DNA from: a virus
Virus record (IMG/VR): IMGVR_UViG_3300031972_000354
Location: 1-27,884 of that record
Direction: 5' to 3' (one strand)
DNA length: 27,884 nt
Numbering within the stretch: the first letter of the stretch is position 1; each line of letters opens with the position of its first letter. This document shows, piece after piece, positions 3 to 19,065 of the stretch. Position numbers and translations under genes: made by a program. Below the pieces are notes generated by a model. That model was not told the DNA's origin and did no database searches. It was given only the letters and a program-made list of their open reading frames with translations.

Positions 3-2396
3 CTAAATGATTTAAAAAAAGAAGTAGGCGTAGTAATAGACGAAGCTGAGTTCTCAAGAATAGCTAATGAAGTAACATCATTTGCTAGACCAACTGTAGA
101 AAGTGCTAAAGACATAGCAAAAAATACATTATTTAAAGCAGCATCTATAGGTGGTGTTGTAGGTACAGCACAATTTTTAACAGCTGATGATGAAAAATTT
201 GTAGCAACAGCTAAAGGATTTGCAGCAGGTGTAGGTATATATGCAGCAGCTAAAGCAGCTACAATGTATTTTGGTAGAAGTAGAGTACCTTATCAAAGTG
301 CAGAAACAAAAGTAGAATCAGCATTAGATGCAGCACAATATTCTACTATTAAATATAATTCATACGCACAAGAACTAGCAAACAAAATTAAAGATACATT
401 ACCAGATCAATTAGATTCTAGACGTAAAGTATTCTATTATCTAACTGGTGCTACAGTAGATGAGAACTTTAGATTTAATAAAAATGTAAAGCCTTTTAAT
501 AAAGGTTTATTATCAGATGCAGAACTTAATGCAGCTAATGACATCTCTAAAATATTTAACGAATTTTATGAAATGTTTAATACGCAGGGTGCAGGTATAG
601 TTAAATATAAAAAATCTAACTATTTACCTCTACTATGGGATGGCTATAGAAGTAAAACAGGTGAACTGTTTAGTTTTACCAATAAGTTTGAAACAGCTAT
701 TACTGGAGATAATCCTAAGTTTAAATTTAGTAGATCTAGAGTTTTTGAAGATATTAACCAAGGTCTAAGAATGGGTTATAAAATTAGACCAGGTATGGAT
801 GATCCTGCAGAGTTAATGAGATTGTATTTACAGTCAGCTGGTAAAGCACTAACTACACAAAATGTATTACGTTTTTTAGAAACTAATTACATAGGTAGAA
901 GTACAGATATTTTAACTAAACCTTTTCTTGCTAGAACTAGAAAACAAGCTGCGTTTATAGACCCTTCAGAAAAAGTTAATTATACAGAATTTAATCACCC
1001 TTTCTTTTCAGGAGATAAAGGGTTTGTACCATTAATACATAAAGGTATAGAACCATCATTACGTATGGTGTTTGATGCAACAACTGAACAACAGTTAATG
1101 ACTGCATTATTTACTACTAACCTTATGATGAAACGATTAGCTGTAGGCTTTTCATTCTTTCATGCTGGTGCATTAGTAGAATCTTTATGGTTTGCAGGTG
1201 CTAAGTTTAAAACTATAGGTAAGTTTTTAAGTCCTAAAACTAAACCAGAAGTATTAAAACAATTACAAGATCCAGGTTATTATCTTACAGATTATCCACA
1301 CGCTATTAAACAACTAAGAGCTCAAGGCTATGATGATGTAGTTAGATTTGGACAAGGTAGTGGTTTAGAAATATCAATGCCTGAAGATGTTGGTTATGAT
1401 AGATTTTATCAAAACATAAGAGGTGTAGATACTTTTCTTAAAAGACATTTTGGTATAAGTCAAACAGGTAATATTGAAAGAACATTTAAATTTTTTGATA
1501 GAATTACTTGGGATAGAATATTTACTTCTGCTAAATTACATACATTTCTTACATCATTAAATAAAGGTAAGAATGCAATACAGCCTGGCGACACACAAGA
1601 ACAGTTATATAAAAAAGCTAGGAGAGCTGCACAATTTACTAATGATGCATATGGTGGACAAAACTGGGCACAAGTTACACAAAGAATTGAAAATAAATTT
1701 ATTAAAAATTTAGCACAAACTACACTAACTCCAGGATCTAGAGGTTACTTACAATTATTATTGTTTGCACCAGACTGGACAATATCTAACATAAGAATTA
1801 TAGCTAAGTCATTACCAGGATTTGAAAGTGATCCTATGGCTAGAAGGTTATATCAATACTATTTTGCTAGAGCTGCACTTACATATGCAGTAGCAGGATC
1901 TGCACTAAATCATATGTTCTCAGGACATGGTATATTAGAAAACACAGATCCAACAAGAATTGACTTAGGGAATGGTGAAGTATTAACTTTCTCTAAACAA
2001 TTAATGGAACCTTTTCATTGGATTACAGCACCTCAATCTACAGGTCTTAAAAAAATTGGTTCTCTACCTAGAACAGTTATAGAAGTATTAACTAATAAGT
2101 CATACTTAACTACTAAGTGGAGTCCCAATATGACTAAAAAAGATGATGAAGCCATTGAAAAAGCATTAAAAATAGGTGGTCATGTTGGTAAAAGATTTTT
2201 ACCTATTTGGCTGCAACAAGCAACAGCATCAATAGAACAAGGTTTGTTAAAAGAAGGTCTATCGTTAGACTTAGCTGCAGACACTTCTGTTGATTTTGTA
2301 CTAGGGCAACTAGGTCACCCTAGATACCAAGGGCCTAGATACACACAATACAAAACGAAAGGGTTAGTAAGGTCTCCTTACGAAACATTATTCTAA
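3..2396 (+). CDS. Large virion-associated protein, C-terminal part (5' end outside window)
   Basis: The frame is open from the first complete codon at position 3 and no start is needed inside the window, so this is the C-terminal ~797 residues of a longer protein. The first ATG in view (264) is internal. The protein is mixed alpha/beta with Lys/Arg-rich stretches. It has two hydrophobic segments, one after the LMMKRLAVGF motif near residue 380 of the visible part and one around YYFARAALTYAVAG. Size, position at the end of the late operon and the hydrophobic patches fit a very large internal or ejected virion protein of podovirus-like phages. I see no catalytic motif. The stop overlaps the next ATG by one base (TAATG). 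The virion role is inferred from context. Confidence 0.7.
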   Translation, partial: LNDLKKEVGVVIDEAEFSRIANEVTSFARPTVESAKDIAKNTLFKAASIGGVVGTAQFLTADDEKFVATAKGFAAGVGIYAAAKAATMYFGRSRVPYQSAETKVESALDAAQYSTIKYNSYAQELANKIKDTLPDQLDSRRKVFYYLTGATVDENFRFNKNVKPFNKGLLSDAELNAANDISKIFNEFYEMFNTQGAGIVKYKKSNYLPLLWDGYRSKTGELFSFTNKFETAITGDNPKFKFSRSRVFEDINQGLRMGYKIRPGMDDPAELMRLYLQSAGKALTTQNVLRFLETNYIGRSTDILTKPFLARTRKQAAFIDPSEKVNYTEFNHPFFSGDKGFVPLIHKGIEPSLRMVFDATTEQQLMTALFTTNLMMKRLAVGFSFFHAGALVESLWFAGAKFKTIGKFLSPKTKPEVLKQLQDPGYYLTDYPHAIKQLRAQGYDDVVRFGQGSGLEISMPEDVGYDRFYQNIRGVDTFLKRHFGISQTGNIERTFKFFDRITWDRIFTSAKLHTFLTSLNKGKNAIQPGDTQEQLYKKARRAAQFTNDAYGGQNWAQVTQRIENKFIKNLAQTTLTPGSRGYLQLLLFAPDWTISNIRIIAKSLPGFESDPMARRLYQYYFARAALTYAVAGSALNHMFSGHGILENTDPTRIDLGNGEVLTFSKQLMEPFHWITAPQSTGLKKIGSLPRTVIEVLTNKSYLTTKWSPNMTKKDDEAIEKALKIGGHVGKRFLPIWLQQATASIEQGLLKEGLSLDLAADTSVDFVLGQLGHPRYQGPRYTQYKTKGLVRSPYETLF

Positions 2397-5608: not shown

Positions 5609-5777
5609 TACAGCATTAATAGCATTATTAGGAACTATATTAATGGGTTTAAGTACTTGGGTTCTTATTACTCTAATTGAATTACAAACAATTGTTGCAA
5701 TGATGCAGCAAGAGTTATTATCTTTAGACAAAGTTTTTGGACGTATATATGCACATATGGATAGATTAGCACAATGA
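5592..5777 (+). CDS. One-pass membrane protein with short coiled coil (61 aa)
   Basis: After a basic start (MTRKTN) there is one membrane segment (about residues 8-30, ALIALLGTILMGLSTWVLITL), then an amphipathic helix. The positive-inside rule puts the C-terminus in the periplasm. It overlaps the exported-protein gene upstream by 17 bases and the next gene by ATGA. It lies between two genes for exported proteins and may anchor them. Confidence 0.65.
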   Translation: MTRKTNTALIALLGTILMGLSTWVLITLIELQTIVAMMQQELLSLDKVFGRIYAHMDRLAQ

Positions 5778-7240
5778 AATGGTGGTGTTTTATAATATGG
5801 GGAGCATTATTATGGTTAATGTTATCTTGGTTTGCAAGTTCTGTTGGATTAGCAGAAAATAATGACACAGCATTTAGTACAAATATATTACCAAACGCAG
5901 GTACAACAACATCAAGTAAAACTAATTCTAATTTAGATGGTGTTCAATCTGGATCTACAGGTAATCTTACAAACAATTCTACACACAATGGATTTACAAT
6001 AACTTGCGAAACGCAAGTAAGCAATGCTTGTGGTCGAGCTTTTAATGGTGAGCTAGAAGCATCACATGATATGACTGTAACAGCTACTGGAAGTTTAGTT
6101 GGAATAGAAGGAACAAGCACCCCTGATGGCGTATCTCATACTTCTACACAAATAAAACTTAATGGTGGTATTAATCTTACAAGTTCTATTGCAGTACAAA
6201 GTTGTGAACATAATGCATCTAATTTTACGTGTGGTAATTCTACTGGAGCAGTAGACTCTTATACTTTAGTTATGAAAGTTAAAGATTCTAATGGAAATAC
6301 TCTAGCTACATCTACACAAATTAGAACAACTGATTCTGGTTACAATGCTAATGAAAGAGTTTGGAATGATAATTTACATTACAATGGAGTTCATGCCAAT
6401 CAATACGAATGGTCTTGGACTGGAGTAGATGGATCTCAAAGTACATCTACAGCTACACTTGGCCCTAATTTATTAGGAGCTGAAATGGCATTAGATTTTC
6501 CTACAGAAGATTATGAACCTTTATCTGCACAAGAAATTAAAGATATGAACGAAGGATTAGGTACTGCTAATTTAAATGAATCTGAAATTTGGAATGTAAT
6601 ATCAGGATTAGAAGAAAGTATTGGTGAAAAATTAAACTTAGAAACTGGTGGAGCAGTTACAAGCGTAGAGCTTACAGAAGAATTTAAAATAGTTGTATAC
6701 ACAGCACCAGAAGCTAAACCTAAAGAAGTTGCTAAAGTACAAGAAGTTGTACAAACAATGAATAAAAGTAAAACTGTAGAAACTTTAAAACAAGAAGTTA
6801 TTAAAGAAGTTATTAAAGAATCAAAAACAACAACTACAGAAGTAGTTAAGAATAATTCTAAACAAGAAGTAGTTAAGAACAGTTCTAAACAAGCAATAAA
6901 AGAAAAAACTGTAAAATCTAAACTAGCATTAACTATGGATAAAATAGATGCTAAAGTTAAAAATCCTGTTAAAAATTTACAGCTTAAAAATTTAGTAAAA
7001 ATAGATGCTATGACAGAAGCTCAAGGATCTTTAGCTAGTTACAATATAGTTTTTTATGCTCCAAAAGATATTTATTTAGATCAAATTAACATTACAGATA
7101 ATAGATTAATATACAATGGTGTTCAATTAGTTAGCTATATAAACAATGATACTATTGGAATTAAAGAAAGAACATTAAACGAACTAAACATAAACAAACA
7201 AAGAATATTACTAGAACTTAAGGAGTTACAAAATGGATAG
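5774..7240 (+). CDS. Large exported protein (488 aa) with Cys-rich domain and Lys/Glu/Val repeats
   Basis: The N-terminus (residues 1-27, MKWWCFIIWGALLWLMLSW...VGLA) is a signal peptide or signal anchor. Residues 28-75 are Thr/Ser/Asn-rich. About 75-230 is a beta-rich region with four cysteines in two pairs (C78/C86 and C144/C153). About 250-300 is acidic and helical. About 311-380 is a Lys/Glu/Val-rich segment containing two exact-length copies of EVVKNxSKQ, and the last ~90 residues look folded again. A periplasmic or surface protein is the best reading, and the charged repeat region could span part of the periplasm. It is neither an obvious tail fibre nor an enzyme. The stop overlaps the next gene by 8 bases. 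Confidence 0.75.
   Translation: MKWWCFIIWGALLWLMLSWFASSVGLAENNDTAFSTNILPNAGTTTSSKTNSNLDGVQSGSTGNLTNNSTHNGFTITCETQVSNACGRAFNGELEASHDMTVTATGSLVGIEGTSTPDGVSHTSTQIKLNGGINLTSSIAVQSCEHNASNFTCGNSTGAVDSYTLVMKVKDSNGNTLATSTQIRTTDSGYNANERVWNDNLHYNGVHANQYEWSWTGVDGSQSTSTATLGPNLLGAEMALDFPTEDYEPLSAQEIKDMNEGLGTANLNESEIWNVISGLEESIGEKLNLETGGAVTSVELTEEFKIVVYTAPEAKPKEVAKVQEVVQTMNKSKTVETLKQEVIKEVIKESKTTTTEVVKNNSKQEVVKNSSKQAIKEKTVKSKLALTMDKIDAKVKNPVKNLQLKNLVKIDAMTEAQGSLASYNIVFYAPKDIYLDQINITDNRLIYNGVQLVSYINNDTIGIKERTLNELNINKQRILLELKELQNG
6839..6892 (+). repeat. 27-bp in-frame tandem repeat (two units) inside the exported-protein gene
   Basis: Two adjacent 27-base units, 6839-6865 and 6866-6892, differ at two positions and encode EVVKNNSKQ and EVVKNSSKQ. 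A shorter 12-base duplication (gaagttattaaa twice, 6794-6817) lies just upstream. Both are in frame, so slippage here would lengthen or shorten the charged linker without breaking the gene. Confidence 0.85.
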
Positions 7241-15204: not shown

Positions 15205-15385
15205 GTTCCTCCTTTAGTTTGGTTAATCGTATGTATTTACTTTTTGTTTGATAATATTCATTATCAAATTCTTGACTTCCAGGAATTGGATCGACATCTT
15301 CGATGAGCCAATTCCAAGCTTTCCTGATGGCTAAACCACCAATAGTATAAGTAACAAATCTAACAACAGAAATAATTCCATTCAT
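15167..15385 (-). CDS. Small protein with hydrophobic N-terminus (72 aa)
   Basis: GAGAGGAG precedes ATG 15385, which overlaps the stop of the regulator gene by one base. Residues 1-22 are moderately hydrophobic (MNGIISVVRFVTYTIGGLAI) and could lie at the membrane. The remainder is charged and helical, ending RKNRRSNS. Not recognised. Confidence 0.57.
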   Translation of the reverse strand: MNGIISVVRFVTYTIGGLAIRKAWNWLIEDVDPIPGSQEFDNEYYQTKSKYIRLTKLKEEHEAYRKNRRSNS

Positions 15386-15810
15386 TAATCTCCTCTCATT
15401 TGGTTTAATAGTATTTTATATTTAGGATTAGTTTGTCTAGTTAAGTAGTTATGTTTACCTACATTATCTATCTTTTCCCAAGCTCTTGTTATCTGAGATA
15501 TACGTAGTGGGTATGGACTATCATCCTCAAAAGGATCTATAGTTTTCATCCACTCATCAAATATTGCTTCTGGTTTAGTAACAGCAAACAAATTTAAATC
15601 CCAACGTTTTTGGTTACATATATCTATTAGATGATCTCCAGGTAATCTGTTAATACATCTTTCATATTTTTGTATTTGTTGGAATGTTACTTCTATACAT
15701 TGTGCTATATTTTTTTGTGTATAACCATTCCACACTCTATGTAATGTCAATATTTTAGCAATATTAGCATTTATATCACCTTTGTGTGGTGTACGTTTAC
15801 ATTTACCCAT
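15385..15810 (-). CDS. XRE-type helix-turn-helix regulator
   Basis: From ATG 15810 (GGAGG five bases upstream) the protein has 141 residues. The Cro/C1-type HTH is clear: NIAKILTLHRVWNGYTQKN with IAQCIEVTFQQIQKYERCIN (about residues 16-54), where the Gln-Gln-x-Gln-Lys-Tyr-Glu stretch is typical of the recognition helix. The C-terminal 80 residues are not a known sensor or protease domain. Because it lies inside the early operon, it is a good candidate for the protein that controls the divergent region at 17.9 kb. The frame extends four codons further to 15822 without a better site. Confidence 0.82.
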   Translation of the reverse strand: MGKCKRTPHKGDINANIAKILTLHRVWNGYTQKNIAQCIEVTFQQIQKYERCINRLPGDHLIDICNQKRWDLNLFAVTKPEAIFDEWMKTIDPFEDDSPYPLRISQITRAWEKIDNVGKHNYLTRQTNPKYKILLNQMRGD

Positions 15811-16105
15811 TGTTACCTCCATATATTTTATTTAATACCAGCAGCTCACGCTTGTCGGAGCCTGATGGTATGGTTACTACTCTAATTGATAGTTTCTTAT
15901 CTCTATATATTTTAACTATCTGTATATATCCTCTCTTTGGATATAATATTGGCAGGTGGATTACTTTAAGAAAGTATTTTTTCCACCACAGTATGTTCTC
16001 TAGTCTTATTGAGCCTGTAAAGTCTTGGTTATACAGCAGCTTTACTGCTCTGCTTAGATTTATTGGATTTTCTCGAAACTTGTTTTCTAGTATTACTCTG
16101 AACAT
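15803..16105 (-). CDS. Basic hypothetical protein (100 aa)
   Basis: ATG 16105 has AGAGGT five bases upstream and is preferred over an ATG ten codons earlier. The product is basic and strand-rich, with LENILWWKKYFLKVIHLP and GYIQIVKIYRDKKLSIRVV. It has no membrane segment. It overlaps the start of the regulator gene by 8 bases. Not recognised. Confidence 0.55.
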   Translation of the reverse strand: MFRVILENKFRENPINLSRAVKLLYNQDFTGSIRLENILWWKKYFLKVIHLPILYPKRGYIQIVKIYRDKKLSIRVVTIPSGSDKRELLVLNKIYGGNNG

Positions 16106-17730: not shown

Positions 17731-17905
17731 ATCTTATCTCCTATTGGTTAAGCTATACACACACACATTAATATGTCTGGATATAGCACTTATTTATGTT
17801 GCTATTAATATTACTAACAATCAGGTTATTCAGTAATATCAACAGGTTAAATCATTATCGGTAATCAACTAATCAATCGACAAGCGAGAGTTAGTCAACT
17901 ACCAA

Positions 17906-17934
17906 TATATAATAACAACTTATAACGCTGTCAC
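17906..17934 (-). promoter_or_regulatory. Leftward sigma-70-like promoter candidate
   Basis: On the minus strand GTGACA (17934-17929) is separated by 17 bases from TATATA (17911-17906). Transcription would start near 17899 and give a leader of about 170 bases before ATG 17730. The -35 element lies inside the left arm and loop of the inverted repeat at 17922-17950, where a bound repressor would block it. Confidence 0.4.
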
Positions 17935-17950
17935 TTGCGACAGCGATTAT
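17922..17950. repeat. Inverted repeat, operator- or origin-like
   Basis: CGCTGTC (17926-17932) and GACAGCG (17939-17945) are perfect complements around ACTTGC. Pairing continues with ATAA (17922-17925) against TTAT (17947-17950), leaving one bulged A, 11 pairs in all. It overlaps the leftward -35 and lies just before the rightward TTGACA. That fits an operator for a dimeric repressor such as the XRE-type protein at 15385-15810, though an origin hairpin is an alternative. Confidence 0.6.
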
Positions 17951-17953
17951 CAG

Positions 17954-17982
17954 TTGACACAACAGAACTAAATTAATAACAG
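17954..17982 (+). promoter_or_regulatory. Rightward promoter candidate
   Basis: A perfect TTGACA (17954-17959) is followed after 17 bases by TAACAG (17977-17982), a weak -10. It would serve the rightward structural operon with a leader of about 130 bases. The poor -10 suggests that an activator is needed or that the match is chance. Confidence 0.3.
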
Positions 17983-17997
17983 CGAGCAACAGCGAGC
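17978..17997 (+). repeat. Perfect 10-bp tandem repeat
   Basis: aacagcgagc occurs twice head to tail (17978-17987 and 17988-17997). The shared word AGCGA also occurs at 17883 and 17942, in and near the inverted repeat. Two copies one helical turn apart could be protein-binding sites, such as iterons or activator sites. Confidence 0.7.
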
Positions 17998-18048
17998 TGA
18001 GAACATAACAACAATAAGAAAAACCAGGGGTTTTACAATCACCCCTTC

Positions 18049-18075
18049 GTCATGATAGTCGTAGAACTATCTGAC
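18049..18075 (+). promoter_or_regulatory. Leader hairpin of the rightward operon with competing C/G-rich partners
   Basis: GTCA-t-GATAGT (18049-18059) pairs with ACTATC-TGAC (18066-18075) around CGTAGA: ten pairs with one bulge. It is flanked by AGGGG (18026-18030), CCCC (18042-18045), a run of six G (18080-18085) and AAGGGG (18108-18113, next to the ribosome site). The single C-run can pair with any of the three G-runs, a design seen in attenuators and translation-control leaders. No T-run follows directly after the hairpin. Confidence 0.45.
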
Positions 18076-18121
18076 AATAGGGGGGTTTTGTACAGCACCA
18101 TAACAAGAAGGGGCTATCATT

Positions 18122-18385
18122 ATGATACCAGCAGTAGCAGCAGGGACTATGGGATTAAGAATCCTTAAGACCCTATACAAAGGCAAAAAAAAGATAGGTG
18201 CAGCGTCTAAAATGGCAGCTGACAAAGCAGGAAAAGCAGGATTCACAGGTACTAGCAAAGCTATTACAGGTGCATCTAAGAAAATACACTCAGGATCAAG
18301 ACAAGTAGGCAAATTCGTTAAGAAAAACCCTAAAACGTCATCATTTGCAGGTGGTGTAGCGACTATATCCTTCCTTGACGATTAA
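18122..18385 (+). CDS. Small basic Ala/Lys-rich protein (87 aa), first of the basic-protein cassette
   Basis: A GAAGGGG site eight bases upstream selects ATG 18122. The product has a hydrophobic start (MIPAVAAGTMGLRILKTLY), then a long Lys/Ala/Gly-rich body (KAGFTGTSKAITGASKKIHSG) and a mildly hydrophobic end. It resembles small virion-associated or membrane-active phage proteins. It leads the structural operon, so it is likely made late. Function unknown. Confidence 0.65.
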   Translation: MIPAVAAGTMGLRILKTLYKGKKKIGAASKMAADKAGKAGFTGTSKAITGASKKIHSGSRQVGKFVKKNPKTSSFAGGVATISFLDD

Positions 18386-18667: not shown

Positions 18668-18814
18668 ATGGCTAAAAAAGGATTATACGCTAACATTCAC
18701 GCAAAGCGAAAGAGAATTAAGGCAGGATCAAAAGAAAAAATGCGAAAAAGAGGTGCCAAAGGTGCACCAACTGCATCTAACTTTAGGAGAGCAGCTAAGA
18801 CTGCTAAGAAATAA
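18668..18814 (+). CDS. Tiny basic protein, KGLYANIHAKRKRI type (48 aa)
   Basis: The start MAKKGLYANIHAKRKRIKAG, then SKEKMRKRGAKGAPTASNF, is a sequence type found in very many phages and phage-like genomes, where it is an uncharacterised protein of 40-50 residues. No catalytic residues are evident. It lies upstream of terminase and its stop overlaps the next ATG (TAATG). Confidence 0.85.
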   Translation: MAKKGLYANIHAKRKRIKAGSKEKMRKRGAKGAPTASNFRRAAKTAKK

Positions 18815-19065
18815 TGGCAAAGACAGCAGCATGGCAGCGTAAAGAAGGCAAGAACCCAAAGGGGGGTTTGAATGCTAAAGGTCGTGCTAGTTATAAGAGA
18901 CAAACTGGGGGAACATTAAAAGCTCCTAGTAAAAAAGTAGGAAACAAACGTAGAGCTAGTTTCTGTGCTAGAATGAAAGGCATGAAACGTAAGCTAACTT
19001 CTGCTAAAACAGCGAGAGATCCTAATAGCAGAATAAATAAATCACTAAGAGCATGGAATTGTTAA
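18814..19065 (+). CDS. Small basic protein of the KNPKGGLNAKGR type (DUF6321-like)
   Basis: Its ordered motifs are AAWQRKEGKNPKGGLNAKGR (about 5-24), TGGTLKAPSKK (about 32-42), RRASFCARMKGMK (about 46-58) and a C-terminal NSRINKSLRAW. I associate this protein with the DUF6321 group, spread across tailed phages and always tiny and basic. The role is unknown; the wide conservation points to a structural or packaging function. The DUF number is from memory. Confidence 0.82.
   Translation: MAKTAAWQRKEGKNPKGGLNAKGRASYKRQTGGTLKAPSKKVGNKRRASFCARMKGMKRKLTSAKTARDPNSRINKSLRAWNC

Follow-up and report, generated by a model that had tools for sequence, protein, structure and literature searches.

An inverted repeat between divergent phage operons as a likely part of two folded leader RNAs

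What does the inverted repeat in the gap between the leftward and rightward genes of this phage do? The whole stretch of DNA analyzed here (the window) is a linear virus record of 27,884 bases with a GC content of 0.26-0.38 in 1-kb windows. A run of small genes reads leftward from 17730, and the genes for the small and large terminase subunits and the portal read rightward, right of 18122; judging from this gene content, the left genes are probably early and the right genes late. The preliminary description of the locus had proposed a possible lambda-like switch in the gap, in which the XRE-type protein of the leftward operon could bind the inverted repeat and choose between early and late transcription. 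Its view of the gap as a control region, with the leftward small-gene set on one side and the rightward terminase/portal/capsid operon on the other, is right in outline. Instead of serving as a repressor switch, the marked repeat most likely belongs to a pair of divergent folded RNA leaders, whose features are collected in Table 1. The first leftward gene, which has the ribosome-binding site AGGAG at 17742-17738, had been absent from the list of open reading frames because that list used a 50-aa cut-off. The slot of the first late gene (18122-18385) is variable, and several relatives have other small basic proteins there, some with an LYKGK motif. No integrase had been visible, and none was found among the 23 distinct window proteins scanned, the window being a linear fragment. 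By terminase, the closest named phages are Pelagibacter phage HTVC106P (48.9%) and Methylophilales phage Venkman (47.5%); the nearer relatives are IMG/VR contigs, of which 80 were kept of 412 (terminase identity 84-100%). The host is presumably a SAR11-type marine bacterium.

Table 1. Coordinates of the features discussed, with the evidence for each (positions of the window).
Feature	Position	Strand	Evidence
XRE-type gene named in the preliminary description	15385..15822	-	HTH_3 in 5/7 homologues above cut-off
First leftward gene, 40 aa	17608..17730	-	ORF and homologues in relatives
Third hairpin of putative leftward leader	17752..17787	-	fold; moderate support
Domain 0, second hairpin of putative leftward leader	17802..17845	-	strand test, pairing count
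Domain A, first long hairpin of putative leftward leader	17856..17907	-	strand test, covariation
AT-rich core between the folds, possible site of both promoters	17904..17915		sequence; inferred
HP1, marked inverted repeat, first hairpin of putative rightward leader	17916..17956	+	z -6.5; arm swap; of 24 cores, 15 favor plus and 1 minus
HP2, tandem repeat, small hairpin with GA/GA mismatch	17980..17999	+	covarying inner pairs
60-nt element GGGTTT...CACCC...TAGGGGGGTT	18028..18087	+	72/73 viral pattern matches exactly 60 nt; 42 distinct cores
P2, hairpin within the 60-nt element	18049..18075	+	z; arm swap, 11 sequence classes; no strand preference
First rightward gene, small basic protein	18122..18385	+	ORF; related or unrelated small proteins in relatives

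The leftward GTGACA-17-TATATA pair on which the switch was built is present (TGTCAC at 17929-17934, with TATATA 17 bases on at 17911-17906), as are the bulged inverted repeat (ATAACGCTGTC at 17922-17932 and GACAGCGATTAT at 17939-17950) and the 10-base tandem repeat (17978-17997). The outer pair GTCAACT (17894-17900) and AGTTGAC (17952-17958) exists as well, but the best outer pairing according to the fold is another, CAACT (17916-17920) with AGTTG (17952-17956). The rightward TTGACA is likewise found at 17954-17959 but has no good -10 element at 16-18 bases, and the promoter scan of the window listed none at this site; the leftward pair went unlisted because the scan demands a T at the last -10 place. 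Among 35 aligned rows (window included, several near-duplicates, mostly close), the leftward GTGACA-16..18-TATATA was kept in 24, so that a leftward promoter may lie there, the rightward TTGACA was kept in 3, and the letters of the tandem repeat were kept in 2. The marked repeat persists in relatives as a hairpin whose letters change, completely so in some of them. The intergenic alignment, from which L001, L081, L093, L036, and L021 were omitted as duplicates and L011, L057, L012, L091, L090, L087, L073, and L055 were skipped as homologues starting right of the region, contains conserved blocks flanking a stretch of changing letters, and there the hairpin still forms.

The XRE-type gene is real, with coordinates of 15385-15822 rather than the 15385-15810 given earlier: the window protein is below the Pfam cut-off (HTH_3, E 0.051), and the assignment is sound because five of seven homologues exceed it. 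The proposal that the inverted repeat is the operator of this protein was not supported, as repeat and protein vary independently in sequence among the 17 rows that have both. The stretch FQQIQKYERCINR is common to the XRE proteins of 15 of these rows. L086 encodes an XRE protein 97% identical to that of the window, with the same FQQIQKYERCINR, and has a hairpin of unrelated sequence; conversely, L033, L035, L044, and L045 encode XRE proteins of 57-59% identity and carry the window hairpin letter for letter. The likeness to a lambda-type switch lies in the divergent operons, the leftward of which includes a genuine XRE gene, and in the leftward promoter-like pair. A lambda-type operator, however, is conserved with the recognition helix of its repressor, whereas the marked repeat varies independently of the XRE protein; of the opposed promoters with -35 and -10 elements that such a switch has, the leftward pair is kept here in most rows, and the rightward TTGACA is seldom kept and lacks a good -10; and HP1 has the strand bias described below. 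We therefore consider it very unlikely that an XRE repressor on this repeat chooses the direction of transcription. The XRE protein may bind elsewhere in the region.

The HP1 hairpin is beyond chance. As plus-strand RNA, 17900-17965 folded with -18.9 kcal/mol in comparison to a shuffled mean of -5.2 kcal/mol (z -6.5), and none of 200 shuffles was as good; shuffles kept dinucleotides in the fold-energy tests and single-base composition only in the scripted tests. When 5' halves from 15 sequence classes were joined to foreign 3' halves, the mean energy went from -15.6 to -6.6 kcal/mol, and 10% of the swaps still reached the worst natural energy. A count of wobble combinations (16 GT, 15 AC) gave no answer as to the strand and was replaced by strand energies on 24 trimmed cores, close relatives among them: with a margin of more than 0.5 kcal/mol, 15 cores favored the plus strand and 1 the minus strand, or 14 to 1 without the L139 core, which is probably not HP1. 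Ten leaders (L006, L012, L021, L036, L088, L089, L099, L101, L105, and L121) were omitted from this count because the anchor missed HP1. The strand z-scores (plus -4.3, minus -2.3, n 36) are subject to base-composition bias and mis-anchored rows and were not relied on. In these sequence comparisons, the marked repeat has the behavior expected of a stem in a rightward RNA. The tandem repeat corresponds to HP2, in which the inner pairs vary together in relatives (GC/GC, AC/GT, GT/AC) and the GA/GA mismatch stays. Right of HP2 lies a variable run of small hairpins, with 2.67 per leader versus 0.72 in shuffles and a number above that of the shuffles in 40 of 42 rightward leaders; these small hairpins have no clear strand preference (plus in 8 and minus in 4 of 45). 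The plus-strand fold of 17904-18121 gave a z of -7.0 (0/200 shuffles). Plus-strand folding of the right side is less strongly supported than the fold on the left.

The minus-strand fold of the left side is the strongest result of the analysis. The block left of 17907 looks like an imperfect dyad on the plus strand, and the minus strand turns most of its mismatches into G-U pairs. With rows outside 44-48 nt dropped (48 of 52 kept), domain A folded better as minus-strand RNA in 39 of 39 distinct sequences and domain 0 did so in 39 of 40, the last one being even. The third hairpin had a mean z of -1.9 and, among 41 relatives, folded better on the minus strand in 25 and on the plus strand in 10. 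Over 17731-17916, the minus strand reached -51.1 kcal/mol (z -5.7, 0/200 shuffles) and the plus strand -29.6 kcal/mol (z -2.3). RNAalifold found domain A unaided, with 21 pairs of which 11 were changed on both sides; it did not add domain 0, whose arms were defined by folding the window-type sequence. In 45 sequences, 90.1% of the cells of the left fold were paired versus 81.3% in shuffles, 123 cells were changed on both sides versus 40.9, and covariation was 0.347 versus 0.192, with each value reached by 0 of 500 shuffles; sliding the fold lowered the covariation to 0.106 or less. By domain, the paired cells amounted to 97.8% for domain A and 77.8% for domain 0. The number of pair types (46 versus 40.4) was reached by 7 of 500 shuffles, and the pairs with two-sided change were in modest excess (16 versus 13.0, reached by 25 of 500). 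A covariance model of the left leader, R1, matched 39 of the 42 loci bearing the 60-nt element described below, including five (L029, L006, L114, L102, and L045) that were absent from its building. No match was obtained for L012, L057, and L151 because these loci start 79-166 nt before the element and the region is missing, and five weak matches on the opposite strand arose because the left fold is partly symmetric. Among six loci of isolates, the best R1 score was 16.8 bits (E 2.4). Compensating changes thus preserve the folds in dozens of relatives, with minus-strand folding on the left and a conserved position, although the sequences are related, so that the events counted are not independent. 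L091 and L161 (a much longer contig of 88,284 bases) likewise carry the left leader together with the 60-nt element, either from a larger phage or through an assembly join.

The 60-nt element was defined by a pattern with free gaps of 6-10 and 20-50 that matched 73 viral stretches; the single exception in length, L109 (63 nt), was probably matched by chance and was excluded from the 60-nt set. A looser pattern gave the same length in the loci, save in L109 and in matches counted one G earlier. The six matches of the same pattern in bacterial genome contigs measured 52, 53, 62, 65, 67, and 74 nt, none of them 60, and look like chance. An ATG reading frame of at least 40 codons follows the element after 23-98 nt in 41 of 42 cases and at 0 nt in the remaining one, perhaps a chance start there, and in 40 of 42 loci it is followed further downstream by the terminase gene, reading the same way; in the other two the terminase gene is outside the locus. 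The hairpin P2 had a z below -2 in 42 of 42 distinct cores (mean -4.8), which form 11 classes at 70% single linkage; its mean energy of -11.5 rose to -4.3 when arms were swapped, with 6% of the swaps reaching the worst natural energy. P2 showed no strand preference (plus in 6, minus in 11 of 36), so that its RNA nature rests on its position and its neighbors. A further hairpin, P1, upstream of GGGTTT was set aside as weak (z below -2 in 10 of 42), and a coding function of the element was rejected because it has in-frame stops in relatives (noted by reading, without a count). The element was not found in HTVC106P or Venkman, both searched whole, or in the searched parts of Greip and HTVC024P. 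In HTVC106P, the sequence TTAGGGGGGTTTTG (L163:1868-1890), immediately ahead of the terminase gene, resembles the end of the element, without the rest.

It is unusual for an RNA to keep one length while its bulges shift freely, and this combination could reflect a spacing rule at the DNA level. The corresponding alternative is a DNA-level element, an origin or packaging site, whose hairpins would form in cruciform or single-stranded DNA and whose 60-bp spacing would be set by bound proteins. Besides the exact length, the nearly all Watson-Crick pairing of P2 with no strand preference would fit such an element, as would an enrichment of contig ends just upstream: among the 53 of 73 contigs whose locus is the whole contig, 15 ended within 400 nt versus about 3.5 expected. 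The G-U pattern of the left fold, however, points to RNA, the contig ends are scattered instead of falling at one base and perhaps reflect assembly breaks or terminase selection, and the GC skew tracks the direction of the genes throughout the window, so that it offers no independent sign of the origin suggested in the preliminary description. We regard a DNA-level element as distinctly improbable, and a cos or packaging site was rejected on account of the scattered ends. These contig ends lie about 100-400 nt left of the element in relatives and represent either a biological end or places where hairpins broke the assembly. The element was also considered as an attenuator, in which its CACCCY would pair with either an upstream GGG or a downstream GGGGGG, the latter pairing making an intrinsic terminator. 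Either pairing could form, and in the 42 cases CACCC is followed by C (28) or T (14), both of which can pair with G. An intrinsic terminator consists of a G+C-rich stem directly followed by a U run, but relatives do not preserve the T run that follows GGGGGG and the terminator scan lists nothing at the element, and a terminator at this site was rejected. The invariance of the G and C tracts, which arose partly because the search pattern demanded them, also speaks against attenuation, which we hold to be highly doubtful.

The reading that we favor, and think probable, is that the region encodes a divergent pair of structured leader RNAs that are transcribed from near the AT-rich core and act in cis. 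Two transcripts, both of which we infer to start near 17904-17915, would run away from each other out of the core, and each would have a long hairpin at its 5' end or close to it. The leftward leader would carry the long hairpins 17907-17856 and 17845-17802 and the weaker third one (17787-17752), followed by the first leftward gene; the rightward leader would begin with HP1 and continue through the variable small hairpins on A-rich linkers to the 60-nt element shortly before the first late gene. The folds would act in cis on their own operons. The predicted starts conflict with full stems, as the start expected from GTGACA-17-TATATA is near 17899, inside the domain A stem, and the covarying pairs reach 17907.

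HK022 put RNA uses the beta-prime zinc-binding domain to suppress termination and pausing. According to the portions of PMC9378689 consulted, HK022 putL and putR are folded RNAs of about 70 nt with two stem-loops, located downstream of divergent phage promoters and acting in cis on RNA polymerase; putL anti-pausing is lost by insertions or deletions between putL and the pause site. They are the closest precedent found: predicted structured RNA likewise lies on both sides here. Whereas putL and putR resemble each other and lie on early transcripts, the two leaders here are unlike each other by R1, which had no match in 17959-18121 at E up to 5, and one of them precedes late genes. By this analogy, action on the elongating RNA polymerase is our leading guess, offered tentatively, with control of translation or of mRNA stability as alternatives. 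A bolder and rather unlikely proposal is a hub without a dedicated regulator protein in a group of uncultivated marine phages, in which two different nascent RNAs would run both operons by modifying RNA polymerase in cis; each would fold on leaving the polymerase, and the late one would act via a ruler-like element of exactly 60 nt placed after a fast-changing hairpin array. If true, this would extend put-like RNA control beyond lambdoid phages and to late genes. At bidirectional promoters, divergent starts lie 7-25 bp apart and the -10 element is shared. The sections of PMC10268837 consulted describe this sharing and a usual distance of 18 bp between starts. The AT-rich core between the divergent units would allow such a promoter here, but starts 18 bp apart cannot yield both stems complete.

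Phage leader RNAs are known, and RNA-level control occurs in marine phages such as Melnitz and Mosig, whose glutamine riboswitches, in phages of streamlined marine bacterial hosts, belong to what the consulted part of PMC9004378 calls a rare feature in phages. RNA-level control would be common to those phages and this one, but Rfam release 15 (riboswitches included) gave no match at the gathering score in the window and five relatives, and weak matches appeared only at E of at least 0.25, to unrelated families. A comparison of 17770-18140 with 50,697 phage records, from which records very near the window were possibly left out, yielded no DNA match, and no description of these leader RNAs was found in the literature searched. 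The pair is new in that it is filed in no database or literature searched. It is conserved across the phage group at the hinge between early-type and late genes, and it combines clear left-strand covariation with a length-invariant element whose hairpin is freely rewritten. If the favored reading is true, the locus would provide a testable model of gene timing in phages whose bacterial hosts have few regulators, and it would add two new RNA families that could be sought in other genomes.

Two other parts of the window are of separate interest. The DNA of the 83-aa gene region 18814-19065 is unusually well kept across phage groups: blastn matched it in 231 phage records, and most of the matches listed bear the names of Synechococcus, Prochlorococcus, and Pelagibacter phages; eight PHROG families of function not known match it, seven of them at the C-terminal end or as a whole. 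Tandem repeats of 12, 18, and 27 bases occupy 6713-6893, within the 488-aa gene 5774-7240.
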